A stretch of 64,000 bases of DNA from Larkinella terrae (GTDB lineage Bacteria; Bacteroidota; Bacteroidia; Cytophagales; Spirosomataceae): positions 310,001-374,000 of the forward strand of contig NZ_WJXZ01000012.1 in the NCBI RefSeq assembly GCF_009668025.1, written 5' to 3'. The translations under genes were made by a program, and so were the position numbers. Positions 10,365 through 40,551 of this stretch are shown here, piece by piece (within the stretch, counting starts at the first letter, position 1; each line of letters starts with the position of its first letter). The notes under the pieces are model-generated. The model was given only the letters and a program-made list of their open reading frames with translations, was not told the origin of the DNA and made no database searches.

Positions 10365-10446
10365 AGCAGAGGGCAGAGGGGTAAGGGCAGAGGGTGGCTG
10401 ACGCGTTCTAGTTTTGCGAAGCACCCTTTGCCCTTACCCCTCTGCT
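10365..10446. repeat. Hairpin repeat, element A copy 1 (G-rich/C-rich arms), after secA
   Basis: The 5' arm at 10373-10395 (starting GCAGAGGGGTAAGGG) pairs with the 3' arm at 10423-10445 over 23 bp with one mismatch. The loop of 27 nt contains GCTGACGCG. An extra AGCAGAGG lies just 5' of the arm. The element begins 3 nt after the secA stop. Related copies lie inside coding sequence at 17037-17120 and 28891-28984, and a remnant is at 25394-25433. Confidence 0.85.
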
Positions 10447-10475
10447 TAACGCCCAAACCTTATGCGATAGAACCC

Positions 10476-11057
10476 ATGTCTGCTCAGCCGAAACCACACT
10501 ACACACCGGAACTTTATCTGGAACTGGAACGCAAAGCGGACCACAAGAGCGAGTATTTCAAAGGCGAAATATTCGCGATGGCTGGCGCATCTCGCAACCA
10601 CAATCGGATTAAGGAAAATCTCTCTATCGGAATTGGATCTTATTTGAAAGGGAAACGCTGTCAGTCCTTTTCGTCCGATATGCGGCTTCATATTCCTTCC
10701 AATTCGCTTTATACTTATCCCGATCTGGTCGTGGTCTGCGGAGAACCGCAGATGCTCGATGTTAATTTCGATACGCTGCTGAATCCGACAGTTATTGTTG
10801 AAGTGCTGTCCGGCAGTACGAAAGACTACGACCGCGGGAGTAAATTCATGCTGTACCGCAACATTCCTACTTTTCAGGAATACATTCTGATCGACTCCGA
10901 GCAGATTCGGGCGGAGGCCTGGTATAAACCGGATAACGGTTTCTGGACGTTGCGAACGGAAACCACGCTGGCTGACGATTCCCTGACCATTCAGACCCTT
11001 GATTTCACGCTGCCGTTGCGGGACATTTACGACCAGACCGTTGGCTTACTGAATTAA
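10476..11057 (+). CDS. Uma2-family (DUF820) PD-(D/E)xK nuclease-fold protein
   Basis: A 193-residue protein of the Uma2/DUF820 family, which has a restriction-endonuclease-like fold but an undefined cellular role and is often multicopy in Cytophagales and cyanobacteria. Visible family marks are the N-terminal [14 protein letters not shown], the acidic [10 protein letters not shown] (catalytic Asp about residue 83) and [20 protein letters not shown] (catalytic Glu about 105), then [14 protein letters not shown]. The frame is open from 10428, but the ATG at 10476 gives the normal N-terminus and leaves the upstream repeat non-coding. It is a single gene; nothing nearby indicates a partner. Confidence 0.88.
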
Positions 11058-11116
11058 ACCTTTCCGGGCATGGGTTCGTTGCGGCTCCTGATTCGTGTAT
11101 CTACAATAGTGTTGCG

Positions 11117-11181
11117 AAATCTTTCACAAAACCAATAAAGAAAGAAAGATTTTGTAGTATTGTTCCAATTTTCAATACTAC
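11117..11181. other. Two adjacent small inverted repeats in the gap before the KAS III gene
   Basis: AAATCTTTC (11117-11125) pairs with GAAAGATTT (11144-11152). Immediately after, GTAGTATTG (11154-11162) pairs with CAATACTAC (11173-11181), both perfect 9-bp stems. There is no clear T-tract. They could be a terminator for the Uma2 gene or a leader structure for the next gene. Confidence 0.4.
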
Positions 11182-11247
11182 GCTTTCCCGGAAATACTTA
11201 ATTTTCGGTGTGGAATCCCTAAGGCGGGCTCCCTTCTTTTATTTCGT

Positions 11248-12195
11248 ATGATGTATATTCATGCCGTTAGCCATTACTTTCCAAGCGAAGTAGTTGGAAA
11301 CGAACACTTTACTAAGCTCAACGGATTATCGAGCGACTGGATTATCGAACGGACCGGCATTCGGGAACGTCGCAAAGCGGCTCCCGACGAAAATACAAAC
11401 ACCATGGCGCTGGAAGCCGTCCGGCGGCTGTTCGACCAAACGACGATTGAACCTTCTCAGATTGACCTTATTGTTGGTGCCACGTACACCCCTTACGATA
11501 CCATAGTCACCCTGGCACACGTTGTCCAGCACAACCTGGGTGTTCCCGATATTCCGGTTATTTCGATATCAACGGCCTGTTCGTCGCTCATCAATGCGAT
11601 TGAAGTCGTCGAAGGGTATTTTGCCATGAATAAGGCGACGCTGGCGGTGGTCGTCGTTTCGGAACACAATACGGCTTATAACAACGAAACAGACACGATA
11701 TCGGGGCATTTATGGGGTGACGGCGCGGCCGCCCTGCTCATCTCCAAAGAGCGGATCAGCGACGACGACATGACAATCCACAGCATTATAACGGGTGGAG
11801 CGGCTACGAGCGGAAAGGCGGTCACCGGCGTGATGCTAAAACCGCTGGAGAATGGCGTTAGTATGCCCCACGGTCGCGACGTGTTCATCAATGCCTGCGT
11901 TTATATGCCGAAGGTGAGTGTGCAGGTGCTGGAAAAACACAACCTGACGATCGACGATGTGGATTACCTGATTCCGCACCAGGCCAACCTGCGCATCAGC
12001 CTGAACGTGATCAATACGTTGAAACTCCCCGAATCGAAACTGCTTTCCAATATTCAGAAGCTCGGCAATACGGGCTGCGCGGGCTGTGCCATTGCCCTTT
12101 CCGAAAACCGGGCGGTTTTCAAAAAAGGCCAGAACATTGTCCTGACGGTTTTCGGCGGAGGCTATTCGTTCGGCGCAATGCTGGTGGAAGCGTAA
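11248..12195 (+). CDS. 3-oxoacyl-ACP synthase III (FabH-like) family enzyme
   Basis: A 315-residue thiolase-fold condensing enzyme. The catalytic triad of KAS III is present: Cys111 in ISTACSSLINA, His244 in LIPHQANLRIS and Asn274 in LGNTGCAGCA. The N-terminal WIIERTGIRERR is typical of FabH. The family joins acetyl-CoA or another acyl-CoA to malonyl-ACP to start fatty-acid synthesis, but several homologues act in specialised pathways. No other fatty-acid gene is adjacent here (fabD is 28 kb away), so a role as the primary fabH is uncertain. ATG codons at residues 1 and 2 are alternative starts. Confidence 0.9.
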   Translation: MMYIHAVSHYFPSEVVGNEHFTKLNGLSSDWIIERTGIRERRKAAPDENTNTMALEAVRRLFDQTTIEPSQIDLIVGATYTPYDTIVTLAHVVQHNLGVPDIPVISISTACSSLINAIEVVEGYFAMNKATLAVVVVSEHNTAYNNETDTISGHLWGDGAAALLISKERISDDDMTIHSIITGGAATSGKAVTGVMLKPLENGVSMPHGRDVFINACVYMPKVSVQVLEKHNLTIDDVDYLIPHQANLRISLNVINTLKLPESKLLSNIQKLGNTGCAGCAIALSENRAVFKKGQNIVLTVFGGGYSFGAMLVEA

Positions 12196-12201
12196 ATAGG
12201 A

Positions 12202-12271
12202 GAATTATGGATTATGAACGATGAATTATGCGCTGCGGTAGCCAGAATTCATCGTTCATAATCCATAATTC
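12202..12271. repeat. Hairpin repeat, element B copy 1, perfect 26-bp stem
   Basis: The arm at 12202-12227 is the exact reverse complement of 12246-12271 (26 of 26). The 18-nt loop contains GCTGCGGTAGCCAG. It fills almost the whole gap between the convergent KAS III and M1 peptidase genes, starting 6 nt after one stop and ending 5 nt from the other. It could end transcription from both sides, although no uridine tract is needed to explain its conservation. Confidence 0.9.
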
Positions 12272-12276
12272 ATAAT

Positions 12277-14247
12277 TTAATTTGCCGTTGACGACGACGG
12301 CGCGGAGCTGTTTCGCCAGACGTTGTTTTTGGGATTGATGTCCGGAACCTGCTCATCCGGGTCGATGGTCACCGCGCGGATGGGAGCCGTAGTCGGTTGT
12401 TTGAAACTCCAGGTGCCGCCCCGCTGCCAGATTTCGACCGGCAGGTTGACCCGCGTTTTTTTGCCGCCCACTTCTTCAACTTCAACCGTCACCGGCATCG
12501 CCCACTTTTCCAGGTTTTCGATAGTAATCACCGAGCCTTTCTGCGGGTCCTGTTCGACGTACCGCACCTCTTTTACCGACTGATCCAGTTTCCAGGTTTC
12601 GAAGAAATACCCGCGCCAGAACCAGCCCAGGTCTTCCCCGGCCGCGTCCTCGATGGTCCGGAAAAAGTCGTACGGCGTCGGGTGCTTGAACGCCCAGCGC
12701 TGAACGTAGGTCTTGAAAGCAAAGTCAAACCGCTTCGGACCCAGCACCACATCGCGCAGCAGTTTCAGGCCCATTCCCGGTTTGTAATAGCCCATCACGC
12801 CCAGATGCAGCGGTTGCAGCACGTCGGGGATGGTCATAATTGGTTCGTCGATGTTGAATAAAGCCGGGGCAATGTCGTGCATCGTTCCCTTCTGCCGGTT
12901 ATATTCGCCTTTGTTGAAGTTCGCCGTCGAAAGCTGATTGATAAACGTATTGAAGCCCTCATCCATCCAGGCGTATTTCCGTTCGTTGTTACCCACAATC
13001 ATTGGGAACCAGTTGTGCCCAAACTCGTGGTCTGTAACGCCCCAGAGCGACTCTTTCTTGTCGCGCCGATCGCAGAAAACAATGCCGGGGTATTCCATGC
13101 CGCCCACAATACCGGCGACGTTGGTCGCGACCGGATACGAATATTCAAACAGGTAATTCGAGTAAAATTCAATACAGCCTTTGATGTATTCCGTCGAGCG
13201 GTTCCAGGAATCGTCACTGGCGCTTTCCGTCGGGTACGCCGACATCGCCAGCGCCTTTTTCCCGCTCGGCAGATTGATCCGGGCCGCATCCCACACAAAC
13301 GCTTTGGACGTGGCCCAGGCTACGTCGCGGGCATTCTGGCACCGGAACCGCCACGTCAGCCGACCGGTTTGTTTCGGGCGGCTTTGCGGGTCGTTCACCT
13401 CGTCCCGGGATCGGAGCAGCACGGTTTTGTCGCTGTTGCGGGCCAGCGCCAACCGCTTTTGCTGCTCGGCCGTCAGCACTTCCTGCGGGTTCAGCAATTC
13501 GCCGGAACCGACCACTAGGTGATTCCAGGGCACGTCGATCGCGTATTCAAAATCGCCGTATTCCAGGTAAAATTCACCAGCTCCGAGGTAAGGCAGCACA
13601 TTCCAGCCTTCAATGTCGTCGTAAACGCACATCCGCGGGTACCATTGCGCCATCTCGTAAATCAGGCCGTTGCGGGTTTGCGAAGTTCCCATTCGATCGG
13701 AACCGTAGGCCGGGATTTTAAACGAATACTCAATTTTTAACTTGATCACATCGCCACCCGGTTTCAGCGGTTCGCTCAGACGCACCTGCATCCGCGTATC
13801 GGTAACGAGGTAATCAACAGCTTTTGACTTTCCATCGATCGTGACGGACTGAATTGCAAAACCGCCCGAAAAACCGGTGTTGCCGTAACGACCACCGCGG
13901 ACGGGTGTTGTTTTGGTGGCCCGGGATGTATCCGAAAAAGCGTTCTGATCGAGTTGCAGCCACAAAAACGGCAGGGCTTCGGGGCTGTTGTTTTTATACG
14001 TGATTTCGACCTCGCCAGTCAGCACGTTTTTCTCATCGTCCAGGCGAGCGTTAATTTTATAATCGGCCCGGTTTTGCCAATAACGCGGTCCGGGATTCCC
14101 GCTGCCGGTCCGGTAATCGTTCCCGGGCTGCATATTGAAAAGCGGATGAAAAAGCTCGTGGGCGTCGTATTTGGAAGAAGTCCCGGATTGGGCCCGGACT
14201 TCAGTCAGCACGCAAAAAAATCCAATAAAAAAAAACAGTTTATTCAT
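12277..14247 (-). CDS. M1-family zinc metallopeptidase (gluzincin), secreted
   Basis: A 656-residue protein with a signal peptide (hydrophobic residues 4-16, cleavage near VRAQ). The catalytic core has HEFGH at 407-411 and the third zinc ligand Glu430 in WMDEGFNTF, the HExxH-18-E pattern of M1 peptidases. The exopeptidase GAMEN region is replaced by GGMEYP (about 382-387). The N-terminal part (about 55-260) is the beta-rich M1 domain that binds the substrate N-terminus. It probably trims peptides in the periplasm or outside the cell. It is monocistronic and converges on the KAS III gene across the element B hairpin. Confidence 0.93.
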
Positions 14248-14417
14248 GAAGTTGATTGATCTACGTAATCAGCAAACTAATTTAGAATGTATGGTTTTCC
14301 ACATAAACCGGTCGCCATCAGCCGATTTACATTTTTGAGCCATAAATTATAAACGTAAAACTGATCTTTTCTTCTTAATTACTAACGTTCCGAACAGCTT
14401 TTCATTTGGTGCGGTTT

Positions 14418-14624
14418 CTACATCTTAAACCAGTCGCGGAAACTGGCCGGCCGGTTTCCGAGGCAACTATACGCAATAGCCAGGAGAATATTCAAAATAA
14501 TCCCAATGCCGCCGGTGGCGATTTTTCCCCAAAAGCTCGGCGTTAAAAAAGCCAGCAACAAACCGGTGACTAACCAGGTAATGACCATCACAACAACGAC
14601 GACGGCTTTCAGGATTTTGACCAT
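14418..14624 (-). CDS. Small two-helix membrane protein, unknown function
   Basis: A 68-residue protein with two hydrophobic helices (about 4-28 and 36-53) separated by SFWGKIATGG, ending in a short charged tail (NRPASFRDWFKM). Its Met codon lies 1 nt from the stop of the upstream GT-C-like gene, which strongly suggests co-translation. No family could be assigned; a distant resemblance to small YqaE-like proteins is only topological. Confidence 0.65.
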   Translation of the reverse strand: MVKILKAVVVVVMVITWLVTGLLLAFLTPSFWGKIATGGIGIILNILLAIAYSCLGNRPASFRDWFKM

Positions 14625-14625
14625 G

Positions 14626-16302
14626 CTAGGGATTCGGTAGCCACGAAACGCGGGAATCCTTCGGCAACAGTTCCGGCCGGATTAACAGGTAACTTCCTGG
14701 TTCCGGAGCTTTTAACCGCCGGAACGCGCCCGACTCCGCGCTGTTCAGAAAAGTTGTAAAACCGCTATCCTGCGAAAAATACGTCTGCATATCCCGGGTC
14801 ATCAGGATAAAGTTAACGTTCTGCTCGTTCAGAAAACGGCCAAAGTCGGTATTGGGCTGGTACATTTCTACCCGAATCCAGCGCGGTTTCTGCTCCCGGC
14901 CATACAGAAAAATCCGGTACCACTCCCGTTCCAGTGAGGTGACGGTCCCATTGATCGAGAGGGATCGGATAAACCGGATGTTATCGGCCACGGGCGTGGG
15001 CCGCGTTTCTTTCTGTTGTTGAACGGTCTGAAAAACCACCCAGATCAGCATCAAACCGGCCAAACCGCCCAGCCAGACCGGCGATTGCACGACGCGTAAC
15101 TTGATGCTCCCCAGCAGGTAAGCAAAAACCGTAATCAGCCCGATGGCGTGGAAATATAGGTAGTGCGATCGCGGAAAAACGAGCACCACCGATGCCATCG
15201 ACGGAAAAAGCAGGATCAGCAGCGCCAGTTCTTTGCTGGTCAGTTTGATTCGTTTGCCGGTGAACTGTCGGAACGTTCCCGGCAAATCGACCAGTCCGAA
15301 AACGATTACCACCAGAAAACCGCCCAAAATCCATTTCCGGTAGGGCGAGGTCAGGTGCATCAGGGGCGTTTCGAAAATGACGCTTCCCAAAACCCGGAAT
15401 TCCGCCTTCGTTGTATTGACAATATTGGTCCAGAAATGCCGCAGAACCAGATCGGGATGCGCCCGGAAAGCGTCACTCATCGACTTGACGTCTTTGCCGA
15501 AAACATCGGAAATGAGCTTGAACTGTTCGACAATCGGAATGTCGATGGGCCGGTTATTCCAGGTGTTGTAGTTAATACTGAAATGCTGCACAAACGCGTC
15601 GAAGCTGCGATTGCTGCCCTTTTCGCCCTGCGCCAGCGGATTTCCGAAAAGGAAGAAAAAGACTACTACCAGCGCAGCAACACCCAATAAACCCGAAAAT
15701 GCGCTCAGGGAGCGGTTTTTGCCGCGTAACCCGGGAATGAAAAACGTTCCGGCAGCCAGACCAGCCGCCAGCAACATGGAAATGTAAAATTCCGGCCGGA
15801 CATACGCACACACCAAAGCCGTTACCGCCGTGATCAACAGCACATTCCGCGCCGACCACTCCCGCGCCTGAACCACACAAAGCCCCGCCAGCATCAGACA
15901 TAACGTGAAGGCCGAAATGCGCGGGTCCAGTTGCACACTCATGGTCGAAAACTGGAAACAGAGCGCACAGAACAGGCTGACGGCAAATCCCGATTTCCGC
16001 AGGTAGAGATACAAAAACAGCAACGCACCGGTCAGGATGATCAGCAAACGCCAGTTTAGGTAGAACAGATCGAGCGTATCGGGCGCAAAAACCTGCAAAA
16101 ACCGCAGCCAGGCCGCATAAAATGAACCCCACTGCGCCAGATACGGATCGGGCGGAAAGGTGTAGGTCAGCCCGGAAGCGAGGTACGTCATTTCGTCGCC
16201 GAAGGTCACGTCATACCGCCACGGCAGGTTATGAGTCAGCGCCAAACCGGAAATAATCAGCAGTAAAATACCCGTCAGAAGCCAGGCCAGTCGGTTTTTC
16301 AT
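14626..16302 (-). CDS. GT-C-type multi-pass membrane glycosyltransferase-like protein
   Basis: A 558-residue polytopic membrane protein with about 11-13 helices. After the first helix it carries GDEMTYLASGL; an acidic pair in the first periplasmic loop is the hallmark of the GT-C fold (ArnT/PMT/GT39-like lipid-phosphosugar transferases). A soluble domain of about 110 residues forms the C-terminus. The frame extends upstream to 16521 but that part overlaps the FAD/Fe-S gene and is not membrane-like, so the start is the ATG at 16302, 2 nt after the upstream stop. The acceptor and sugar are unknown. It lies between the oxidase gene and the 68-residue protein in an apparent operon. Confidence 0.78.
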   Translation of the reverse strand: MKNRLAWLLTGILLLIISGLALTHNLPWRYDVTFGDEMTYLASGLTYTFPPDPYLAQWGSFYAAWLRFLQVFAPDTLDLFYLNWRLLIILTGALLFLYLYLRKSGFAVSLFCALCFQFSTMSVQLDPRISAFTLCLMLAGLCVVQAREWSARNVLLITAVTALVCAYVRPEFYISMLLAAGLAAGTFFIPGLRGKNRSLSAFSGLLGVAALVVVFFFLFGNPLAQGEKGSNRSFDAFVQHFSINYNTWNNRPIDIPIVEQFKLISDVFGKDVKSMSDAFRAHPDLVLRHFWTNIVNTTKAEFRVLGSVIFETPLMHLTSPYRKWILGGFLVVIVFGLVDLPGTFRQFTGKRIKLTSKELALLILLFPSMASVVLVFPRSHYLYFHAIGLITVFAYLLGSIKLRVVQSPVWLGGLAGLMLIWVVFQTVQQQKETRPTPVADNIRFIRSLSINGTVTSLEREWYRIFLYGREQKPRWIRVEMYQPNTDFGRFLNEQNVNFILMTRDMQTYFSQDSGFTTFLNSAESGAFRRLKAPEPGSYLLIRPELLPKDSRVSWLPNP

Positions 16303-16304
16303 TC

Positions 16305-19304
16305 TCAAATAGCTAAAGCTTCGTAAAGGATTTCCGCCGGATGTTTGGCCTTGCGACCGGTTCCGTCCTTGATCTGGTGGCGGCAACTGGTTCCGGCGGC
16401 CGCAATGATCACGTCGTCGGCCTGTTTGCGCACGGTGGGGAACAGCACCAGTTCGCCAATTTTCATCGATACGTCGTAATGCTCGGCCTCGTAGCCAAAC
16501 GAACCGGCCATGCCGCAGCAACCCGACGGAATCAGTTGGACTTCGTAATTTTCGGGCAACGACAGCATTTTTTTCGACGGCACCAGCGACGAAACCGCTT
16601 TCTGCTGGCAGTGTCCGTGCAGTTTGATCAGCCGTTTTTCGGTCGTGAAGGCGGTTTTTGGAATGGCGCCCTTGTCAATCTCGCGGGCGATAAACTCCTC
16701 GAACGTCAGCGTGCTTTCGGAAATCCGACGGGCGTCGGCCACCAGCGACTCGTCGACCAGGTCCGGGTATTCGTCCCGAAACGTCAGAATGGCCGACGGT
16801 TCGATGCCCACCAGTGGCGTTTCGATGGTAATCAGGTCTTTCAGCAAACGGACGTTCTTTTCCGCCAGCTTCTTGGCCTGCCGCAGCAAGCCTTTCGACA
16901 AAGCCGCCCGCCCACTTTCGCCGTGTTCCGGAATGATTACCTCGTAGCCCAGTTTTTTCAACAGCGAAACCGCCTTTTTGCCCACTTCCACGTCGTTGTA
17001 GTTCGTAAACTCATCGCAGAAAAGGTAGAGTTTTTTGGCAGAGGGCAGAGGGCGAAGGGCTATTGAATTACCCTCAGCCCCATGCTCCATGCCCTCTCCC
17101 CTCTGCCCCATGCCCAACGCCCCTTTCGCCCACTTCCGCAGGGTTGTTGAATGCAGCAGCGGCATGGTGCGATCGGGATGAAAACCGATCACGCGGTTGG
17201 CAACCCGCCGGAGCGATTCCGTCCCCAAAACCGCATTGTAGGCCCAGGGAACCAGCGAAGCCAGCCCCGATAAGCTTGCAAAATTGGCAATCAGGCGGCT
17301 GCGAACCGGTACGCCATTCGCATCGTGGTAATGTTGCAGGAACTCCATTTTCAGCTTGGCCACGTCGACATTCGACGGACACTCGCCTTTACAGCCTTTG
17401 CAGGCCAGACACAGGTCGTATACTTCCTTGATCTCCTGGTTGTCAAAGCGGTTTTCCTTCGGCGAAAGCGTCAGCATTTCGCGGAGAATATTAGCCCGCG
17501 CCCGCGTCGTTTCTTTTTCGTTGCGGGTCGCCATATAACTGGGGCACATCGTGCCGCCCGACAGTTCGGTTTTGCGGCAGTCGCCGGAGCCATTGCACTG
17601 CTCGGCGTGTTGCAGGATATTTTGGTCCTGAAACCGGAAAAACGTTTTGAACTCCGGTGTCTGCTGCCCGGCTTCGTACCGCAGAAACGTGTCCATCGGG
17701 GGCGTTTCCACGATTTTGCCGGGATTGAAAATACCGTACGGGTCCCAGGTTTGCTTGATTTCCCGCATCAACTCGTAGTTTTTCGGGCCCACCATCAGCG
17801 GAATAAACTCGCCCCGCAACCGGCCGTCACCGTGTTCACCCGAAAGCGACCCGTCGTATTTTTTGACCAGCCGGGCAATTTCTTCGGCAATCATCCGGTA
17901 TTGCCGGTGACCTTCGGCGGTTTTCAGATTGATAATCGGCCGCAGGTGAATTTCGCCCGAACCGGCATGGGCGTAATGCACCGCCGACATGCTGTGTCGG
18001 GTCAGCACTTCATTGAAATCGCGGATGTAAGCAGGCAAATCGTGCACGTCGATGGCCGTGTCTTCGATTACCGCCACGGCTTTGGCATCACCCGGCAGGT
18101 TGGCCAGCAGACCCAGACCCGCTTTCCGCAACGTCCAGATTTTCTTGGTATCCTCGCCGTATAAAACCGGAAAATGATAGCCCAGGCCAGCCGCCCGCAT
18201 TTCAGCCTCCATTTTGACGGCCTGCGCGGCAATCTCATCGCGGGTCGTTCCGCCAAACTCCACCACCAGAATGGCCCCCGGATCGCCCTGCACGAAGAAG
18301 CGGTTTTTGCGCTGCTCGATATTGTCTTTCGTACACTCCAGAATATAATGATCGATCAGTTCAACGGCGCGGGGCTGATATTTCAGTGCAATCAGGTTGG
18401 CCCGCAGCGACTCATCGACGTCATTGAAATGCACACAAACCAAACCCAGTTCTTTGGGCGGCAGCGGCACCACATTCAGCTTGATCTCGGTCAGGAAACA
18501 GAGCGTTCCTTCCGATCCGGCAATGAGTTTACAGAAATTAAAGGCATCGGTTCCGGCCGTAAAAGGCTCCGTTTCAAGCAGTTCATCCAGCGCATAACCC
18601 GTGTTTCGCCGTTCGATGCTCCGTTTGGGAAACTGACTCCGGATTTCGGACTGGTTGGCCGGATTGGCCAGGATTTCGTTGGTTTTCAGGTATATTTTAT
18701 CCAGCAGCGACGCACTGCCGTTCTTCTGCGTACCGGCACTGATCAACTGGTCGAATTCGGCCGTGTCTAAACGACCGAACTCGGCTTCACTTCCGTCGGA
18801 CAGCAGGACTTTTACGGACAGCAAATGTTCCCGGGTTGAGCGATACACCACTGAATTGGAACCACAGGAATTGTTCCCGACCATTCCGCCGATCATCGCC
18901 CGGTTGGCCGTTGAGGTTTCCGGCCCAAAAAACAAACCGTACGGTTTTAGAAACAGGTTCAGTTCGTCGCGCACCACGCCGGGCTGCACGCGCACCCAGC
19001 GCTCCTGCTCATTCAGCTCAATAACTTGGGTGAAGTTTTTAGAAACATCGACGACAATTCCGCTGCCAACGACCTGCCCGGCCAATGAGGTTCCGGCCGT
19101 ACGGGGAATGAGCGAGGTGCGGTTTTCGCGGGCAAAGGCAATCAATTTTTTAAGATCGCCAATCGATTTCGGAACGGCAACCGCCAGCGGCATTTCACGG
19201 TAAGCGGAGGCATCGGTAGCATATAAAGTTCGCTGGGTGAAATCGGTGTAAAACTCACCCTCTAACTGCGTTGAAAGCTGTTGTAATCTATCCTGATTGA
19301 CCAT
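16305..19304 (-). CDS. FAD-linked oxidase fused to Fe-S and CCG domains (D-2-hydroxyacid dehydrogenase type)
   Basis: A 999-residue fusion related to YdiJ/D-lactate and D-2-hydroxyglutarate dehydrogenases. The FAD-binding type 4 domain (about 25-260) has RTAGTSLAGQVVGSG and GMVGNNSCGSNS, and the FAD-oxidase C domain (to about 540) has GSGEIHLRP and GEHGDGRLRGEF. Two 4Fe-4S clusters come from CNGSGDCRKTELSGGTMCP and CLACKGCKGECP. The C-terminal heterodisulfide-reductase-like region has HGHCQQKA and SGCCGMAGSFGYE. The ATG at 19304 is preferred to an upstream TTG. Between the Fe-S domain and the CCG region an insertion (about residues 727-756) encoded by hairpin element A interrupts the normal KWAK...KLYLFCDEF junction without breaking the frame. 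It probably oxidises a 2-hydroxyacid and passes electrons to quinone. Leads a three-gene operon. Confidence 0.92.
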   Translation of the reverse strand: MVNQDRLQQLSTQLEGEFYTDFTQRTLYATDASAYREMPLAVAVPKSIGDLKKLIAFARENRTSLIPRTAGTSLAGQVVGSGIVVDVSKNFTQVIELNEQERWVRVQPGVVRDELNLFLKPYGLFFGPETSTANRAMIGGMVGNNSCGSNSVVYRSTREHLLSVKVLLSDGSEAEFGRLDTAEFDQLISAGTQKNGSASLLDKIYLKTNEILANPANQSEIRSQFPKRSIERRNTGYALDELLETEPFTAGTDAFNFCKLIAGSEGTLCFLTEIKLNVVPLPPKELGLVCVHFNDVDESLRANLIALKYQPRAVELIDHYILECTKDNIEQRKNRFFVQGDPGAILVVEFGGTTRDEIAAQAVKMEAEMRAAGLGYHFPVLYGEDTKKIWTLRKAGLGLLANLPGDAKAVAVIEDTAIDVHDLPAYIRDFNEVLTRHSMSAVHYAHAGSGEIHLRPIINLKTAEGHRQYRMIAEEIARLVKKYDGSLSGEHGDGRLRGEFIPLMVGPKNYELMREIKQTWDPYGIFNPGKIVETPPMDTFLRYEAGQQTPEFKTFFRFQDQNILQHAEQCNGSGDCRKTELSGGTMCPSYMATRNEKETTRARANILREMLTLSPKENRFDNQEIKEVYDLCLACKGCKGECPSNVDVAKLKMEFLQHYHDANGVPVRSRLIANFASLSGLASLVPWAYNAVLGTESLRRVANRVIGFHPDRTMPLLHSTTLRKWAKGALGMGQRGEGMEHGAEGNSIALRPLPSAKKLYLFCDEFTNYNDVEVGKKAVSLLKKLGYEVIIPEHGESGRAALSKGLLRQAKKLAEKNVRLLKDLITIETPLVGIEPSAILTFRDEYPDLVDESLVADARRISESTLTFEEFIAREIDKGAIPKTAFTTEKRLIKLHGHCQQKAVSSLVPSKKMLSLPENYEVQLIPSGCCGMAGSFGYEAEHYDVSMKIGELVLFPTVRKQADDVIIAAAGTSCRHQIKDGTGRKAKHPAEILYEALAI
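17037..17120. repeat. Hairpin repeat, element A copy 2, inserted in frame in the FAD/Fe-S oxidase gene
   Basis: The arm at 17037-17053 (GGCAGAGGGCAGAGGGC) pairs with 17091-17107 over 17 bp with one mismatch. Read on the minus strand in the host frame it encodes GMGQRGEGMEHGAEG and then LRPLPSAKK. The flanking protein sequence is typical family sequence, so this stretch is the odd part. Compare the same peptide signature at 28891-28984. Confidence 0.85.
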
Positions 19305-19331
19305 AAGAGTCTTCGTCCGAAACCGAATCAA

Positions 19332-19846
19332 ATGTGGTTCGCAAAAATTTTAACAGTACCCGACCTTAAAGGTACAAATTTTTCCAGAATCGCATTCGAA
19401 ACCGGTAGTTAACAGACAACCGGGTGTGTTTAAAAAGTACAATTTTATCGGGCAAAGGACACCGGCAGAATAGGTTAATAACTAGGCGGTTAGCTTATCC
19501 TACTGGTCATATACATGCAATTTTGGCAGTGACTTCTGCCTCTATTTTTTTGATCGTCTTTCCTGCAATTATTTACAAAAATAAACACCAGAATAATTTT
19601 AGGGTTTCACCATTGTATTATACAGTTTATTTATTGTAATTTGCCCTATCAGATCGTAATTATGTTCTATAAAATACCGGAACGATACCATATACGTAAA
19701 TAGTTGAGCGTAAGAATAATCCGCTAAGCGAACAGCAAATCCATTGATTTGTCGGCGTTTAGCTATTGGTATGTTCTCTGCCGTATAGGAACCTGATTAT
19801 TGACTCTGACTGCGTCTTTCATTTCACCTATTCTAAAAGTTAACCT
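19332..19846. other. AT-rich intergenic region upstream of the SusC operon
   Basis: About 515 bp between divergent genes, clearly richer in A and T than its surroundings. On the minus strand TACCTTTA (19374-19367) is one base from the -7 consensus and may serve the oxidase operon. On the plus strand no exact TAnnTTTG was found; GTAATTTGC near 19636-19644 is the nearest resemblance. A 71-codon frame at 19424-19639 shows no convincing protein character. No strong inverted repeat was seen. Confidence 0.5.
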
Positions 19847-22978: not shown

Positions 22979-23011
22979 TCGTTGTTAATCAACTAATTAC
23001 CAACTACTAAC

Positions 23012-24493
23012 ATGTTTAATTCAACGATAAGAGTTTGGGGCGTTTGTCTGGTTCTGCTGCTGGCAGGCGAGGCTTGTACGAACCTTGACGAAAAAACCTA
23101 CGACGTTATTCCGACCGACCAGTTTGGGAGCACGGCGCAGCAACAGGCTGCGTTGATCGGTCCGTTGTATAGCGGTCTGGCCGATTATTACGGTAATAGC
23201 ACCAACTTAAACGCCGTGACGGATGAACAGATTGTTCCGACGCGCGGTGGTGACTGGAAAGACGGGGATAACTGGAAACGGCTCTACACGCATACCTGGG
23301 ACCCTACGACCGACAATGGACAGTTCAACGGCCCCTGGACTTGGTGTTACAACAACATCACCTCTATCAACCAGCAGTTGGGTTCCATTACCGACGAAGG
23401 CGTGAAAGCCGAGCTTCGGGCGTTACGCGCGTTCTTCCATTACAAGGCAATGGATATGTTCGGCAATGTGATCATTGCGGATCAGGTTGGAGCAGCTACT
23501 CCTGCTCAGAAAACCCGGACGGAAGTGTTCAGCTGGGTTGAAAAGGAACTGCTGGAGGTATACCCCAAATTGAGTTCAACGGTAGGTGGCGCCTATTACG
23601 GTCGCTTCAATAAGCCCGTTGTCAACATGATTCTGGCGAAAATGTACCTTAATGCGCAGGTTTATACGGGCACCCCCCGTTGGGCGGATGCGGTTGTACG
23701 CTGTGACAGCATCATCAAGTCGGGCAAGTTTTCGCTGACGGCAGATCTGCTGGATAACTTCAAAGTGCAGAACCAAAACTCCCCGGAAATCATTCTGGCG
23801 ACGCCTTTTGACAACTCGAAAAAAGGCGGTTTTAACATCCAGATGGCCACGTTGCACTACAAGCACCAGTTGACATACAACCTGCCGGCCGCTCCCTGGA
23901 ACGGTTTTGCGACGGTTGTTGAATTTTACAACTCGTTCTCGGCGCAGGATTTACGTAAGAAAATGTGGATTGTGGGTCAGCAGTACGACGCCAGCGGAAA
24001 AGCCCTGGACGATGACGGTATTCCGATGGTGATCACGCCGGAAATTCCAGCCTTCGAAATGCCCGCTGGCCCAGCCGGTCGTCTGGCAGGAGCCCGGAGC
24101 CAGAAATACGAAATCCAGAAGAACAACACCACCAACGACATGAGTAACGACTTCGTTATTTATCGTTTGGGCGACGTGTATCTGATGCGTGGGGAAGCCA
24201 ATTTCCGGCTGGGTAAAGTAGCCGATGCGTTAGCGGATTTCAATATCATCCGGAAACGGGCGGGCGTACCGGATTATACGGCGGCTCAGTTGACGCTGGA
24301 TGAAATTCTGGCCGAACGGGGACGTGAACTGGCGTGGGAATATCACCGCCGTCAGGACCTGATCCGGTTTGGGCAATTCAATAAAGCATGGCGGTTTAAA
24401 CCGGCTTCGGAGCCTTACCGGACGTTATTCCCGATTCCGAAAGATCAGATTTCATTGAACCCAAACCTGAAGCAAAATCCGGGGTATAACTGA
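23012..24493 (+). CDS. SusD/RagB-family outer membrane nutrient-binding lipoprotein
   Basis: A 493-residue lipoprotein, partner lid of the SusC channel just upstream. The signal peptide leads to a Cys at residue 22 (LLLAGEACTNLDEK). The N-terminal SusD domain has the tetratricopeptide-like helices (AELRALRAFFHYKAMDMFGNVI, shown here in part: AELRALRAFFHY), and the C-terminal SusD/RagB domain has YRLGDVYLMRGEANFRLG and RGRELAWEYHRRQDLIRFG, all typical. The protein ends in FPIPKDQISLNPNLKQNPGY, the normal terminus of the family. A strong terminator follows. The ligand cannot be predicted. Confidence 0.95.
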   Translation: MFNSTIRVWGVCLVLLLAGEACTNLDEKTYDVIPTDQFGSTAQQQAALIGPLYSGLADYYGNSTNLNAVTDEQIVPTRGGDWKDGDNWKRLYTHTWDPTTDNGQFNGPWTWCYNNITSINQQLGSITDEGVKAELRALRAFFHYKAMDMFGNVIIADQVGAATPAQKTRTEVFSWVEKELLEVYPKLSSTVGGAYYGRFNKPVVNMILAKMYLNAQVYTGTPRWADAVVRCDSIIKSGKFSLTADLLDNFKVQNQNSPEIILATPFDNSKKGGFNIQMATLHYKHQLTYNLPAAPWNGFATVVEFYNSFSAQDLRKKMWIVGQQYDASGKALDDDGIPMVITPEIPAFEMPAGPAGRLAGARSQKYEIQKNNTTNDMSNDFVIYRLGDVYLMRGEANFRLGKVADALADFNIIRKRAGVPDYTAAQLTLDEILAERGRELAWEYHRRQDLIRFGQFNKAWRFKPASEPYRTLFPIPKDQISLNPNLKQNPGYN

Positions 24494-24508
24494 TAAACAC
24501 TTGTTTTC

Positions 24509-24540
24509 CTGAAAAAGCCCGGTTCTCCGGGCTTTTTCAG
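24509..24540 (+). terminator. Strong Rho-independent-like terminator of the SusC-SusD operon
   Basis: CTGAAAAAGCCCGG (24509-24522), loop TTCT, CCGGGCTTTTTCAG (24527-24540): a perfect 14-bp stem with the T-run forming part of the descending arm. It begins 16 nt after the SusD stop codon. Confidence 0.8.
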
Positions 24541-24563
24541 TTGTAGTGGAACGAACCTAAATG

Positions 24564-24625
24564 TCTTAAAGGGCACTGTTCGCATTGAGTGGTTATCACA
24601 AAGTCCTTTTAGGGGATTTAGGGGC
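24564..24625. repeat. Diverged repeat, element E outer part, without the inner hairpin
   Basis: The segment with GAGTGGTTATCACAAAGT and CTTTTAGGGGATTTAGGG resembles the two flanks of the composite repeat at 43957-44132 (GAGTGGTTGTTATACAAAGT and CTTTAGGGGATTTAGGG). Here the two flanks are directly joined. It lies between the SusD terminator and the first FG-GAP gene. Confidence 0.5.
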
Positions 24626-24695
24626 AGCTAAAACCGCCCTAAACGAAATTTATTGAGTATCTTTAAAACCTGATTTTGCCAGTCTGCCACCGTTC

Positions 24696-27600
24696 ATGCG
24701 TTATTGGATTCTAGTTGTCTTGTTGTCTGCGCTGATGGGCTGTCAGTCCTCGAACGGTCCATCCGAAGAACCGCTTTTTGAAAAATTATCGCCGGAAACG
24801 ACCCATATTACCTTCACCAACTCGGTCGTCGACGACAAGGACTTCAACATTTTCAATTACCGGAATTTCTACAACGGCGGGGGCGTCGCCATCGGTGACG
24901 TTAACAACGACGGTTTTCCCGACATCTACCTGATTGCCAACATGGGCGAAAACCGCCTGTACCTTAACAAGGCAAAACAGGGCGCGGCTCCGCTTGAATT
25001 TGCAGACGTTACGGCCAGAGCGGGCGTTGCCGGAAAACGGGCGTGGAGTACCGGGGCCACCTTTGCCGACGTCAACGGCGACGGTTTGCTGGATTTATAC
25101 GTCTGCAACGCCGGAATCCGACCCGGCGACGATCGCGGTAATGAGCTGTTTATCAACAACGGAATTGGCAAAGACGGAATTCCAACCTTCACCGAGCAGG
25201 CCGCCGACTACGGCCTGGACGATCACGGCTACTCGACTCATGCCGCCTTCTTCGACTACGACCGCGACGGTGATCTGGACATGTACCTGCTCAACAACAG
25301 CTTCATGCCCGTCGGCAAACTCGGTTACGCCAACATCCGCTCCGAGCGCGATCCACTGGGTGGCCACAAATTGTTTCGGAATGACATGGTGTCGGGCAAT
25401 GGGCAAAGAGGTAAAAAAGAAGCCCCCCCTGCCAAACCGCACTTCACCGATATCAGCGAGCAGGCCGGGATTTACGGCAGTCTGATCGGTTTTGGGCTGG
25501 GCATCACGATTGGTGATGTGAACGACGACAACTGGCTGGACATTTACATCTCCAACGATTTTTACGAACGCGATTACCTGTACCTGAACAACCACGACGG
25601 CACGTTTCGGGAGTCGGTCAAGGATGCAATGCCGCACCTGAGCCTGTCGTCGATGGGGGCCGACGTGGCCGATGTTAACAACGATGGACGGCTGGATATT
25701 TTCGTGACGGATATGCTGCCGGGGAATGACGTGCGGCTGAAAAAAACCGGTGCGTTCGAGAATTACGACCTGCAGGAAATCAAACTGTCGCGGGATTTTC
25801 ATTACCAGTACATGCAGAATATGCTGCATCTGAATCAGGGCAATGAACCCGGTTCCGGCAAAACAACCGTGCCGCTGTTCAGCGACGTGGCCCGGTTTTC
25901 GGGCGTTCACGCGACGGACTGGAGCTGGGGTGCGTTGATTTTCGACATGGACAACGACGGCCGGAAGGATATTTTTGTCGCCAACGGAATTGCCAAAGAC
26001 GTGACGGATCAGGATTTTATCCACTTCCTAGCCGACCGCGAAAACATGGCCCAAATCGCCCGTCAGCGCGAATTCAACTTCAAGGAATTTCTCGACAAAG
26101 CTCCGTCCGAACCCATTCCCAATTACGCGTTCCGCAACGAAGGGAATCTGGCTTTTTCCAATAAAGCCGCCAGTTGGGGCTTGGGCGAACCGAATTTCTC
26201 GAACGGCGCGGCTTACGGCGATCTCGACAACGACGGCGATCTGGATCTGGTGGTGAATAACGTCAACTCGCCGGTTTCGGTTTTCAAAAACGGTTCGGTC
26301 GAGAAAAACAAGACGAATTACCTGCGCGTCAAGCTGGCTGGTGAAGCTCAAAACCGCAACGCCATCGGAGCGCGGGTTTTCGTTTACCAGAAAGGCCAGA
26401 TGCAGGTGTTGCAGCAAATGCCGAACCGCGGTTTTCAGTCGTCGGTCGACCTGAACTTACTGTTTGGGTTGGGTACCAACAGCCTGATCGACTCGCTGAC
26501 GGTCGTCTGGCCGAACGACCGAATGCAGACCCTGCGACAGCCGAAAGCGAACCAGCTCCTGACCCTCAGCCAAAAAGATGCGACCGGTTTCTGGAAACCC
26601 GAAAAACCGCTCACAAAACCGCTCTTTCGGGATGTGACGGCGGTTTCCGGCCTGAATTACCGGCACGAAGAAAGTCCGTTTGTGGATTACAACCGCGATC
26701 CGCTCCTGAAACAAATGCTCTCGACCAGCGGCCCGGCGATGGCCACCGGCGACGTTAACGGCGACGGGCTGGATGATGTCTTTTTCGGGGGGGCTTTCGG
26801 AAAACCGCACCGGCTTTTTGTGCAGCAATCCGCCGGAAAATTCATCGAGAAAACGCCACCGGTTTTTCGGCAGGATGTAACGTACGAAGCTGTCGATGCG
26901 GTTTTCTTCGACGCCGACGGCGACCAGGATCTGGATTTATACGTCGTGTCGGGCAGTAATGAGTTTGAAGCGGAAGCCGACGAACTGCTCGACCGCCTGT
27001 ATCTCAACGACGGCAAGGGCGGTTTTACGCGCGATGAACGCTTGCCGAACCTGAAAGCCAGCGGTTCCTGCGTAGCCGCTGCCGACTTCGACCGCGATGG
27101 CGACGTGGATTTGTTTGTGGGTACGCGCCTGATTCCGGGCAAATACGGTTTGAATCCGCCCAGTTACCTGCTCACCAACGACGGAACCGGTAATTTCAAG
27201 AATTACACGAAACGGTATCTGTCGGAAGTCGAGAAGTTGGGCATGGTAACCGACGCCACCTGGTCCGATCTGAACGGCGACGGTTTTCCCGAACTCATTG
27301 TGGTGGGCGACTGGATGCCAATTACCATTTTTCAAAATCAGCGCGGCAAACTCACTACAGCTGAGACGCCTAAACTTGCCGACTCGACCACGCCCGCTTC
27401 CGGCTGGTGGAATTGCGTTAAAGCGGGCGATGTGGACGGCGACGGGGACACGGATCTGGTGGTCGGCAATTTGGGGCTTAATTCCCGGATCAAAGCGACG
27501 GCTAAAATACCGGCGGAACTCTACACGGCCGACTTTGACCAGAACGGCAGCCTGGAACAAATCATCAATTGTGCCGACGAAACCGGTACGCTGTATCCGA

Positions 27601-28103
27601 TGGTATTGAAACAGGATTTGCAGAAAGAAATGCCCGCTATCAAGAAAAAATACCTCAAATTCACGGATTTCGCGGGCAAAAGACTCAACGAGATCCTGGA
27701 CGAAAAACAACTGCAAAGTGCCGTCGTGCAGCGCGCGTATACGGGCGAATCGGTGGTTTTGCTAAACGATGGAAAAGGGCATTTCACAATTAAGCCGTTG
27801 CCGAAAGAAGCGCAGTTTTCGCCAGTTTGCGGCATTGAAATTTCCGACCTCGACGGTGACCAAAAGCCGGATCTGGTTCTGACCGGCAACTTTTACGATG
27901 TTTTGCCCGAAATTGGCCGGTACGACGCCAGTTACGGCCTGGTTTTGCTGGGGAAAGGCAAAAACGGCTGGCAGCCGCTCAACCCAACCGCATCCGGTTT
28001 CATCGTCCACGGTCAGGTCCGGCACTTGGCGCGGCTGAAACAGGGGCAGTTTGTTGCCGTAAAAAATAATGATAAAGTACAAGTTCTTGAACTGAAGGAT
28101 TAA
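24696..28103 (+). CDS. FG-GAP/VCBS-repeat lipoprotein with ASPIC/UnbV domain (CRTAC1-like), copy 1
   Basis: A 1135-residue exported lipoprotein (LSALMGC, Cys16). It contains two halves of seven-bladed-propeller type FG-GAP repeats, each with calcium-binding DxDxDG-like loops such as DVNNDGFPDIYL, DVNGDGLLDLYV, DYDRDGDLDMYL and DLDNDGDLDLVV. An ASPIC/UnbV segment (about 545-625, NRGFQSSVDLNLLFGLG) sits between them. The family is thought to mediate binding at the cell surface. It is paralogous over its full length to the next gene. At residues about 233-246 it carries GNGQRGKKEAPPA, which looks like a trimmed form of the element A insertion seen at the same site in copy 2. A 103-bp hairpin-bearing gap separates the two copies. 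Confidence 0.92.
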   Translation: MRYWILVVLLSALMGCQSSNGPSEEPLFEKLSPETTHITFTNSVVDDKDFNIFNYRNFYNGGGVAIGDVNNDGFPDIYLIANMGENRLYLNKAKQGAAPLEFADVTARAGVAGKRAWSTGATFADVNGDGLLDLYVCNAGIRPGDDRGNELFINNGIGKDGIPTFTEQAADYGLDDHGYSTHAAFFDYDRDGDLDMYLLNNSFMPVGKLGYANIRSERDPLGGHKLFRNDMVSGNGQRGKKEAPPAKPHFTDISEQAGIYGSLIGFGLGITIGDVNDDNWLDIYISNDFYERDYLYLNNHDGTFRESVKDAMPHLSLSSMGADVADVNNDGRLDIFVTDMLPGNDVRLKKTGAFENYDLQEIKLSRDFHYQYMQNMLHLNQGNEPGSGKTTVPLFSDVARFSGVHATDWSWGALIFDMDNDGRKDIFVANGIAKDVTDQDFIHFLADRENMAQIARQREFNFKEFLDKAPSEPIPNYAFRNEGNLAFSNKAASWGLGEPNFSNGAAYGDLDNDGDLDLVVNNVNSPVSVFKNGSVEKNKTNYLRVKLAGEAQNRNAIGARVFVYQKGQMQVLQQMPNRGFQSSVDLNLLFGLGTNSLIDSLTVVWPNDRMQTLRQPKANQLLTLSQKDATGFWKPEKPLTKPLFRDVTAVSGLNYRHEESPFVDYNRDPLLKQMLSTSGPAMATGDVNGDGLDDVFFGGAFGKPHRLFVQQSAGKFIEKTPPVFRQDVTYEAVDAVFFDADGDQDLDLYVVSGSNEFEAEADELLDRLYLNDGKGGFTRDERLPNLKASGSCVAAADFDRDGDVDLFVGTRLIPGKYGLNPPSYLLTNDGTGNFKNYTKRYLSEVEKLGMVTDATWSDLNGDGFPELIVVGDWMPITIFQNQRGKLTTAETPKLADSTTPASGWWNCVKAGDVDGDGDTDLVVGNLGLNSRIKATAKIPAELYTADFDQNGSLEQIINCADETGTLYPMVLKQDLQKEMPAIKKKYLKFTDFAGKRLNEILDEKQLQSAVVQRAYTGESVVLLNDGKGHFTIKPLPKEAQFSPVCGIEISDLDGDQKPDLVLTGNFYDVLPEIGRYDASYGLVLLGKGKNGWQPLNPTASGFIVHGQVRHLARLKQGQFVAVKNNDKVQVLELKD
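25394..25433. repeat. Probable remnant of element A inside FG-GAP copy 1
   Basis: GGGCAATGGGCAAAGAGGTA is similar to the 5' end of the element A insertion at the matching codon positions of copy 2 (GCATGGGGCAGAGGGATAA), and CCTGCCAAACCGCA resembles its 3' boundary. The interior, including most of the hairpin, is absent. The reading frame is the same. Confidence 0.5.
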
Positions 28104-28109
28104 CCGTCT

Positions 28110-28205
28110 TGAACCGGGATTACGCGGATTAAAAGATTAAGAGGATGTAAAAGAAGCTTGCGGAGCCAATCTTCTTAATCCTTTAATCCGCGTAATCCCG
28201 GTTCA
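28110..28205. repeat. Hairpin repeat, element C copy 1, between the two FG-GAP genes
   Basis: The arm at 28110-28146 pairs with 28169-28205 over 37 bp with two mismatches; the arm contains GGGATTACGCGGATTAAA. The 22-nt loop contains GCTTGCGGAGCCA. The element begins 7 nt after the stop of copy 1 and ends 10 nt before the ATG of copy 2, so it occupies the whole gap. Confidence 0.9.
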
Positions 28206-28215
28206 GAAATTGATT

Positions 28216-31200
28216 ATGAAACAACTCAGTCTCTTTTTTATAACCGTAACGTTACTGACATCTGGTTGCAAACAGTTGGGTTCTTCGTCCGAAAAACCGC
28301 TTTTTCAATCGCTGGATTCGACCCGGACGGGCATCGGTTTTGTCAATCGGGTTCAGAATACCGATCAGTTTAACATCATCGATTACCTGTATTTCTACAA
28401 CGGCGCGGGTGTGGCCGCTGGCGACATCAACAACGACGGGCTGAGCGATCTGTATTTTGTCTCGAACCAGGGCAAAAACAGGCTTTATCTCAACAAAGGC
28501 GGAATGAAGTTCGAAGACATCACGCAGAAAGCCGGGGTCGAGGGCTTTTCGGATTGGCAGACGGGTGTCACGATGGCCGACGTCAACGGCGATGGCTGGC
28601 TGGATATTTACGTGTGCGCCGTCGGTAATTTCAAAGGACTGGAAGGTTCTAACGAGCTGTATATCAACAATCAGGACGGCACATTTACTGAAAAAGCCGC
28701 CGAATACGGATTGGACTTTACCGGTTTTTCGACGCAAGCTGCTTTCTTCGACTACGACCACGATGGCGATCTGGATTGCTACCTGCTCAACCACGCCGTC
28801 CATACCTCCCGCAGCTACGACCGCGTCACCGCCCGGAATCTACGCCAGAATGAATCCGGTGATTACCTGTTTCGGAATGATTTAGCAAAGAGCATGGGGC
28901 AGAGGGATAAGGGCAGAGGGGTGGGAGCAAATGAGAACCTCTCCGCCCCTCCGCCCCATGCCCTTACCCCTCTGCCCTCTGCCCAAAAACCGCATTTCAC
29001 CAACGTCAGCGAGCAGGCCGGGATTTTTGGGGCGGCAATGGGGTATGGACTGGGCATTTCGGTAGCGGATCTGAACAACGATGGCTGGGAAGATATTTAC
29101 GTTTCCAACGATTTTCACGAGGACGATTACTACTACATCAACAACGGCAAGGGCGGTTTTACAGAAAGTGTTCGGAAGGCGTTTGCACACGTCAGCCGGT
29201 TTTCGATGGGCAACGATGTGGCCGATGTCAATAACGATGGTTATCCGGATGTGGTCACGCTCGATATGTATCCCGAAGACGAAACCGTCGAGAAAATGTC
29301 GCTGGGCGAAGATCCGCTGGATATTTATCTCTACAAACTGAGCTTCGGTTACATGAACCAGTACAGCCGCAACTGTTTACAAATCAGTCAGTCAGGTAAA
29401 AAATTCATCGAAGTTGGGGCGATGGCTGGTGTTGCCGCTACCGACTGGAGCTGGTCGCCCCTGCTGGCCGATTACGACAACGACGGCATCAAGGATCTTT
29501 TCATTTCCAACGGGATTGCCCGGCGGCCCAACGACCTTGATTATGTGAAATACGCGTCCGACGACTCGTTGCGGTATGCGATGGAAACGTCCAAATCCGT
29601 CGATCAAAAGGCGATTTCGCTGATGCCTGAAGGCAAGGTGCATAACTATTTATACAAAGGTTCGTCTGACCTCCGGTTTGCCGACAAATCACTAGCGTGG
29701 GGTTTTGAAAAACCGACCTTTTCGAACGGGGCGGTTTATGCCGATCTGGACAACGACGGCGATCTGGATCTGGTTACGAACAACATCAACGACCCGGCCG
29801 ATCTCTATCAGAATCAGGCGAACGAACTGTTTCCCAATCATCACTACCTGAAAATCAGGCTTCAGGGTGATTCGCCGAACGCGTTTGGCGTGGGAGCAAA
29901 AGTGGTTCTGAAAACAAAAACCGGTTTGCAGCTCCAGCAACTGATGCCAACGCGCGGTTTTGAATCGTCCGTTGAGCCGGTTTTGACGTTTGGTTTGGGT
30001 GAAACTGCTACTGTCGATTCACTGATCGTGATCTGGCCGAACCAGAAAATGGAAATTCAAACCGGCGTAAAAGCCAATCAAACGCTGACGCTGAAGCAAA
30101 CGGCGGCCCGGCAGGATGTTGGCCCGTTTCGATTCACAGCCCCGGACCCCAAACCGCTCTTTGAGGACGTTACCAATCAGACGCCCATTGCGTATCAACA
30201 CCACGAAAATACCTATTTCGATTTTGTCCGCGAATCGTTGATGCCGTTCAAGGTGTCAGCGGAGGGCCCCAGGCTGGCCGTTGGCGACGTCAATGGTGAC
30301 GGGCGGGACGATTTTTACGCGGCCGGTGCCAAATGGCAACCCGGCAGTTTGCAGATTCAGCAGCCCGACGGGCGGTTTAGGACCAGTTACCAGCCGGTTT
30401 TTCAGGCGGATTCGACCTACGAGGACGTTGATGCGGTTTTCTTTGATGCTGATGGCGATAAGGATCTGGATTTGTACGTGGTTTCGGGTGGCAACGAATT
30501 TTTCGAGAAAATGACTGAGCAATTCGACCGCCTGTATTTGAACGACGGCAAAGGAAATTTCAGCCGTTCGACCGGTTTGCCGCCGATGTACGACAACAAA
30601 AGCTGCGTTCGGCCGGTCGATCTGGACGGAGACGGCGATTTGGATTTGTTCGTTGGTGGCCGCGTGACGGCGTTTGCGTACGGAAAAATTCCGAATTCCT
30701 ACCTGCTGATCAATGACGGAAAAGGCCGTTTTACGGATAAAACGGATCAACTGGCACCGGAACTGCGGAAAGCCGGGCTGGTGACGGATGCAATCTGGAT
30801 GGATTACGACCAGGACAAAGACCTCGATCTGGTGGTGGCCGGCGACTGGATGCCCATTCGCGTGTTCGCCAACCAGAAGGGAAAACTGGAAGCGGTTAAA
30901 AGCATTACCGACGAAAATACGCCCCTGAACGGTTTCTGGCAGTGTTTGACCGCTGCCGATTTCGACCGCGACGGTGATCTGGATCTGGTCGCCGGTAATC
31001 TCGGACTGAATACCAAATTCATTAAGCAACCCGAACCACGCCTGAAAATGTGGGTGAAGGATTTTGACAAAAACGGTAGCGTCGATCAGGTCCTGGCCTA
31101 CCAGCGCAATGGAAAAAACTGGTTTCCGGTCAATTTTAAAGATGAATTGGGCAAACAGATGCCGTCCATTATCAACAAGCGGTTTACGAACTACACGGCT

Positions 31201-40441: not shown

Positions 40442-40534
40442 GAACTGGGATTACGCGGATTAAAGGATTAATTGGGATATAAAAGATTTCAGTAGGCAAT
40501 CCTCTTAATCCTTTAATCCGCGTAATCCCAGTTC
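40442..40534. repeat. Hairpin repeat, element C copy 2, perfect 30-bp stem
   Basis: 40442-40471 is the exact reverse complement of 40505-40534 (30 bp, with a loop of 33 nt). The arm has GGGATTACGCGGATTAAAGG, as in copy 1 at 28110-28205. It lies 25 nt after the DCC stop and ends 17 nt before the fabD ATG. Confidence 0.9.
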
Positions 40535-40551
40535 TAGACACTATTTAGACT

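Follow-up and report, generated by a model that had tools for sequence, protein, structure and literature searches.

Degenerate heptad hairpins lie in frame in unrelated proteins of Larkinella terrae, probably through survival of stop-free copies

The genome of Larkinella terrae contains a dispersed hairpin, termed element A, which is composed of degenerate 7 bp units and has no fixed sequence. Eleven of its 38 well-formed copies are located inside ORFs, and every one of these is in frame and free of stop codons. This pattern is real and not a chance effect; it is explained by the survival, in permissive protein loops, of in-frame copies belonging to a stop-free heptad family. It appears that repetitive 'junk' DNA keeps supplying proteins with new loops. 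Palindromes which are read in frame within proteins are best known from Rickettsia. The case described here lies outside that genus, in the Bacteroidota, and offers a simple, testable rule: with a unit of seven bases, stop content alone would set gene residency, and the frame would be irrelevant.

Within the 64 000-nucleotide stretch of DNA that was analysed (the window), one copy of element A is found at 17037–17123 on the minus strand, in the ORF for an FAD/Fe–S oxidase (16305–19331, minus strand). The protein contains FAD-oxidase_C, FAD_binding_4 and 4Fe-4S domains and matches part of the model for the D-2-hydroxyglutarate dehydrogenase YdiJ. Its closest relatives are those of Larkinella rosea and L. 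knui (91% identity), followed by Fibrisoma, Spirosoma and Dyadobacter. The copy translates as ...KGALGMGQRGEGMEHGAEGNSIALRPLPSAKKLYLF... and encodes GMGQRGEGMEHGAEGNSIALRPLPSAK in the linker; the oxidase reads GMGQRGEGMEHGAEGNSIALRPLPSAKK at this site. In the AlphaFold2 model, the insert (residues 732–755) is flanked by a helix and by the strand that opens the C-terminal domain, has pLDDT values below 50 and is predicted to be disordered. Another copy (28891–28984, plus strand) is in frame in the gene for a lipoprotein with FG-GAP/UnbV_ASPIC repeats (28210–31656, plus strand). The original prediction had stated that both copies are in frame in unrelated hosts on opposite strands and have the peptide pattern MGQR...PLPSA(K/Q)K in common, which was confirmed by reading both ORFs directly. 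Agreement in frame between two copies is about a 1-in-3 event and is weak evidence by itself. That they represent two independent insertions is not clear: GQRA-type peptides occur at the oxidase linker elsewhere, and decayed heptads (GGCAATGGGCAAAGAGG...CCCCCCCTGCC, NGQRGKKEAPPA; 25396–25433, plus strand) are present at the homologous site of an FG-GAP paralogue (24696–28103). An intergenic copy (10366–10445), with heptad arms around the core TGGCTGACGC (10395–10404), begins 3 bp past the stop codon of a gene which looks SecA-like from its N-terminal sequence, and lies ahead of a Uma2 gene. A second palindromic repeat, GAACCGGGATTACGCGGATTAAA(A/G)GATTAAGAGGAT, occurs in inverted pairs at 28106–28204, just before the FG-GAP gene, and again at 40494–40539.

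The core GGGCAGAGGG has 76 matches in the 7.85 Mb genome, compared with three for the reversed control. The left arm of element A consists of G-rich 7 bp units (GGGCAGA, GGGCATG, GGGCATA, GGGGTAA, GGGCGTT, GGGCTTG and others) whose order is not fixed. The loop is mostly unconserved, and the right arm is complementary to the left one, which results in a hairpin. A strong fold was found for nearly all of the 38 copies, which are 45–160 bp long. When arms were ranked as partners, a copy's own partner came first in 10 of 37 copies, where 1 was expected (p = 4e-8). Copies were collected by sequence pattern; the copy definitions are heuristic, and the catalogue of 38 is not exhaustive. The arms differ from copy to copy, and a fixed transposon-like element with conserved ends was rejected for this reason. 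The fixed element sequence assumed originally thus gives way to arms of degenerate 7 bp units in variable order. The palindromic core TGGCTGACGC is found in the loop of four of the 38 copies. It is repeated throughout the genus, with 79 matches here (26 for the control) and 191 in the congener G003 (38 for the control), and also in some other genera of the family.

Based on a hexamer coding model and the ORF map, 11 copies were assigned to ORFs and 27 to intergenic regions. The intragenic set includes a degenerate copy (L037), and a copy at the 5' end of a long ORF (L038) was counted as intergenic. The hosts are isoleucyl- and valyl-tRNA synthetase (IleRS and ValRS), UvrA, Mfd, the fused isobutyryl-CoA mutase IcmF, a CrtD-like carotenoid desaturase, a DUF4011/AAA helicase, the FAD/Fe–S oxidase and three FG-GAP proteins. 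At a chance of one-third for each copy, the probability that all 11 are in frame is 6e-6. Of the six frames of the intergenic copies, 46% are free of stops; an insertion placed at random in a gene would thus be expected to combine an open reading with the correct frame in only about 15% of cases. No split genes were detected at intergenic copies: the same-strand flanking ORF pairs which were checked belong to different Pfam families or have one side unassigned. Nor were frameshifted host genes found among the intergenic copies. Behaviour resembling that of Rickettsia palindromic elements (RPE), as suggested originally from the two window copies, is therefore seen genome-wide, in 11 of 11 intragenic copies and even in IleRS and ValRS. 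In one FG-GAP protein (L037:3025–3172), the degenerate heptad copy ends in a poly-G stretch read as poly-Pro, possibly a phase-variable tract or an assembly artefact.

Most of the 27 intergenic copies have a stop or start codon no more than about 10 bp away. At six loci (L040, L043, L044, L046, L060 and L068), elements are found 0–10 bp past the stop codons of ORFs whose ends look like those of paralogous ABC-type permeases, several of them ending in NPVKSLRSE. At L046, the start codon of the next ORF is located at the end of the last CCCCATG unit of the element. At L038:3039–3118 (genome contig C4, about 229.6 kb), element A seems to supply the start codon of an M1-peptidase-like gene and also the beginning of its sequence, which resembles a signal peptide (MVTPHPLPPALCPLLLILFVRIASAQS). 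The same has been reported for a MITE of Yersinia (PMC2229807).

The unit length has consequences for reading. As 7 equals 1 modulo 3, each successive unit is read one phase further on, and if one frame of a perfect single-heptad tandem contains a stop, then so do the other two frames of that strand. Perfect tandems of GGGCAGA, GGGCATG, GGGCGTT and GGGCTTG have no stop in any of the six frames, while a perfect GAGTTAA tandem is closed in all six. The G-arms of the intragenic copies are read in the GQR phase (nine), the AEG phase (six) and the GRG phase (two), and the C-arms in the PSA phase (seven) and the PLP phase (five), with the Leu-Cys phase absent (0/12). Since GGGCAGA is open in six frames and all three phases are in use, there is no privileged coding frame, and the MGQR and PLPSA peptides common to both window copies are the commonest heptads translated in the commonest phase. 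That the element is selected for a frame compatible with coding, one of two explanations proposed in the original prediction, is not upheld by these data. Frameshifts and the occurrence of all three frames had been named there as observations against the proposal; the three frames do occur, whereas frameshifts of host genes were not found. The absence of the Leu-Cys phase and the uneven use of the others leave mild selection at the peptide level as a possibility.

The other explanation, survival of compatible insertions only, fits both the 11 of 11 result and the distribution of a stop-rich family. GAGTTAAGAGT, from the GAGTTAA family, has 85–128 matches in the congeners G002, G003, G004 and G006 (0 for the control), compared with 25 here. 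Only one of 50 GAGTTAA copies in G003 is intragenic, in contrast to 11 of 38 GGGCAGA-type copies here (Fisher p = 3e-4), a comparison of two species as well as two families. Stop trinucleotides are contained in 3 of 11 sense G-arms of the intragenic copies and in 34 of 54 intergenic G-arms (p = 0.045). The contrast in stop content between the families is suggestive of survival filtering rather than of selection for frame.

To describe the insert sites, we aligned them with those of eight congeners, except for the FG-GAP gene of L041, which was aligned with four. The sites are hypervariable loops. The Mfd loop has 28 residues here and 8 in six congeners. The UvrA loop is built from GGGCAGA heptads here, from GAGTTAA-type heptads in G002–G005, and from purine-rich repeats in L. 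rosea and G006. In some loops (FG-GAP protein L041, IcmF), related sequence is present in L. rosea, and the copies there may have been in place for long and have been rewritten, instead of being recent insertions. The linker of the FAD oxidase is variable across many Bacteroidota and often contains 7 bp repeats of other families: GGAGTGA in Spirosoma telluris, ATGACAG in Chitinophagales and relatives, and AATTAAG in Dyadobacter luteus. Lag-7 identity in these linkers is 0.42 versus 0.23 in the upstream control, lag 7 being the best in 19 of 47. For the pooled congener loops the signal is weak (0.30 versus 0.23), because most of them hold no heptads. The same peptide in homologues from distant genera had also been named as an argument against the original proposal, and this was found in part: the FAD oxidases of Spirosoma validum and Runella carry GQRA-type peptides at the same linker. 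What recurs is the site rather than one recent event. Strong hairpin z-scores were obtained for some of the coding loops only, namely UvrA of G002 (−10.7), of G004 (−3.8) and of L. terrae (−3.5) and the FAD linker of S. telluris (−5.2), and not for the purine-rich loops. With different heptad families in the same loops of sister species, the origin of fast-evolving protein loops can be tested directly, as can the still unexplained abundance of 7-base repeats among bacteria.

Replacement of units is also seen outside genes. At the secA–Uma2 junction, a hairpin just past the stop codon is present in L. terrae, L. rosea and G003, and the core TGGCTGAC is common to all three. The arm beside it is of the GCAGAGG type here, of the GTTTATA type in L. 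rosea and of the GTTTACG/GTTTTCA type in G003, with four units aligned in register and without gaps across the three species. At other loci, the core present at secA–Uma2 in G003 is flanked by GAGTTAA arms. A similar picture emerges at the purE–lysM junction, where the L. terrae core is more degenerate, and the lptF–eamA junction appears to be empty in G003. In this comparison of one genome per species, the junctions would fit either persistence of the hairpin with replacement of its arms by units from the vocabulary of the species, or repeated insertion at the same spot. A broader proposal is that rewriting happens in place at dispersed hairpins, those in protein-coding loops among them: both arms would be converted unit for unit and in register into the 7-nucleotide vocabulary of the species, with the core retained. 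We consider this unlikely; if it were true, a concerted process in steps of seven nucleotides would repeatedly rewrite protein loops with the frame kept. At two junctions which hold element A here, L. rosea has a different palindrome (CGTACCCACGGAC...GTCCGTGGGTAC; L309 and L315).

Taken together, element A is probably a non-autonomous hairpin, dispersed through the genome, with arms that consist of degenerate 7 bp arrays and draw on a species-specific vocabulary. It would spread by copying between loci and would accumulate where it is tolerated, beside stop and start codons and, in genes, in surface loops that are already variable. There, purifying selection may act as a filter, leaving those copies which keep the frame and lack an in-frame stop; a stop-free family such as GGGCAGA would be pre-adapted to read-through in any frame. 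The complementarity of the arms may be maintained by template switching (quasipalindrome correction) or by conversion. Alternatively, element A may be a true mobile element of the MITE or RPE kind, inserted whole by a dedicated or borrowed transposase, with heptad variation as later decay. Dispersal in both orientations, the patchy distribution among genomes (GGGCAGAGGG has 76 matches here, 4–11 in eight congeners and 70 in G031, from another genus of the family) and the apparently empty lptF–eamA junction of G003 speak for it. We nevertheless regard it as doubtful, as there are no conserved ends, no visible target duplication and no associated transposase; moreover, arms are more alike within one copy than between copies, and decay does not explain why whole heptad families are swapped at orthologous sites while the core stays. 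Inverted arms are present, and no target-site duplication was seen by eye at Mfd and lptF–eamA in a comparison across species, with one genome for each. No transposase linked to element A was found. Three Y1/RAYT (Y1_Tnp) genes are present, none of them flanked by heptads or the core TGGCTGACGC, and mobilization by RAYT was rejected because these genes carry other palindromes. Each of the three RAYT-like loci (L179, L180 and L181) has its own distinct palindromic repeats, and part of the L180-type palindrome (CCCACGGTTTGAACCGTGGG) is also present next to the element at L048. In G031 (L149–L178), GGGCAGAGGG cores are combined with GGTACTTT/AAAGTACC spacers to form larger arrays, most of them intergenic. 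This genome was rejected as a replicate of in-frame insertion: its heptads have GGTACTTT spacers, and no clear in-frame intragenic copy was seen among the loci read.

Two further explanations were considered. Local slippage in steps of 7 bp could act in each loop separately, without movement between loci, G-rich low-complexity loops converging on the same heptads by mutation bias. According to Mrazek (2007), as cited in PMC4679880, many bacterial genomes have heptads as their most frequent long simple repeats, for which slippage of the polymerase was proposed, and the lag-7 periodicity with different units in linkers of many Bacteroidota is in line with this. We judge it improbable, since a single vocabulary is used at some 40 dispersed loci here and another in sister species (GGGCAGA, 76 versus 4–11; GAGTTAA, 25 versus 85–128), and slippage alone would not create inverted arms matched within each element. 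Selection of the encoded peptide, with GQR/PSA serving as a useful hydrophilic linker read in a single favoured frame, would account for the location of the inserts in linkers, for the prevalence of the GQR and PSA phases and for the missing Leu-Cys phase. It is very hard to reconcile with the AEG, GRG and PLP phases, with unrelated peptides in orthologous loops of sister species and with a majority of intergenic copies, and we give it little credence. Survival of in-frame, stop-free copies at tolerated sites is the reading which we prefer.

In the open-access literature searched (subscription papers were outside the search), we found no description of heptad hairpins inside protein genes of Bacteroidota, which makes the novelty provisional. 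Several known systems have features in common with element A. The core TGGCTGACGC...GCGTCAGCCA forms a REP-like palindrome that recurs across the genus and in some genera elsewhere in the family, but unlike in REP/RAYT systems, the three Y1/RAYT genes of L. terrae have neither this core nor heptads at their flanks. Dispersed heptamers, G-rich or otherwise, near stop and start codons are known as GGGNATC and GGGGA(C/T)T in Xanthomonas and Nostoc (PMC4692102) and as TAACTGA in Beggiatoaceae (PMC4679880). They are described as direct repeats, whereas the units of element A occur in inverted pairs which form hairpins, 11 of 38 inside genes. The Correia/NEMIS elements of Neisseria follow the same rule of stop content for gene occupancy, the 107 bp form with an open frame being fused to genes and the 155 bp form, with stops in all frames, remaining intergenic (PMC2229807). 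Unlike element A, they are MITEs of fixed sequence with terminal inverted repeats and target duplication.

RPE are dispersed hairpins of about 100 bp, located in frame in unrelated conserved proteins and in intergenic regions (Ogata et al., 2000; reviewed in PMC10969869 and PMC2229807), and their families are described as having an ORF of their own with a conserved peptide (PMC10969869, PMC2229807). Element A likewise forms dispersed stem–loops in frame in unrelated protein genes and also between genes. It differs in having neither a fixed consensus nor a single peptide, in using all three phases, in units that change between sister species, and in its host, Larkinella (Spirosomataceae, Bacteroidota) instead of Rickettsia. 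Thus, element A works like an RPE but is not a member of this group. The closest architecture is that of the cyanobacterial heptanucleotide hairpins, including STRR, which also have a stem of complementary 7-nucleotide repeats. In the P6b stem of the Nostoc trnL intron, heptanucleotides of Class I (TDNGATT) and Class II (NNTGAGT) replace one another without a change in fold (PMC4476775), just as the unit class is replaced at the same stem across Larkinella (secA–Uma2, purE–lysM and the UvrA loop). In contrast to this intron RNA stem, element A is dispersed over many loci and is found in frame inside protein genes.
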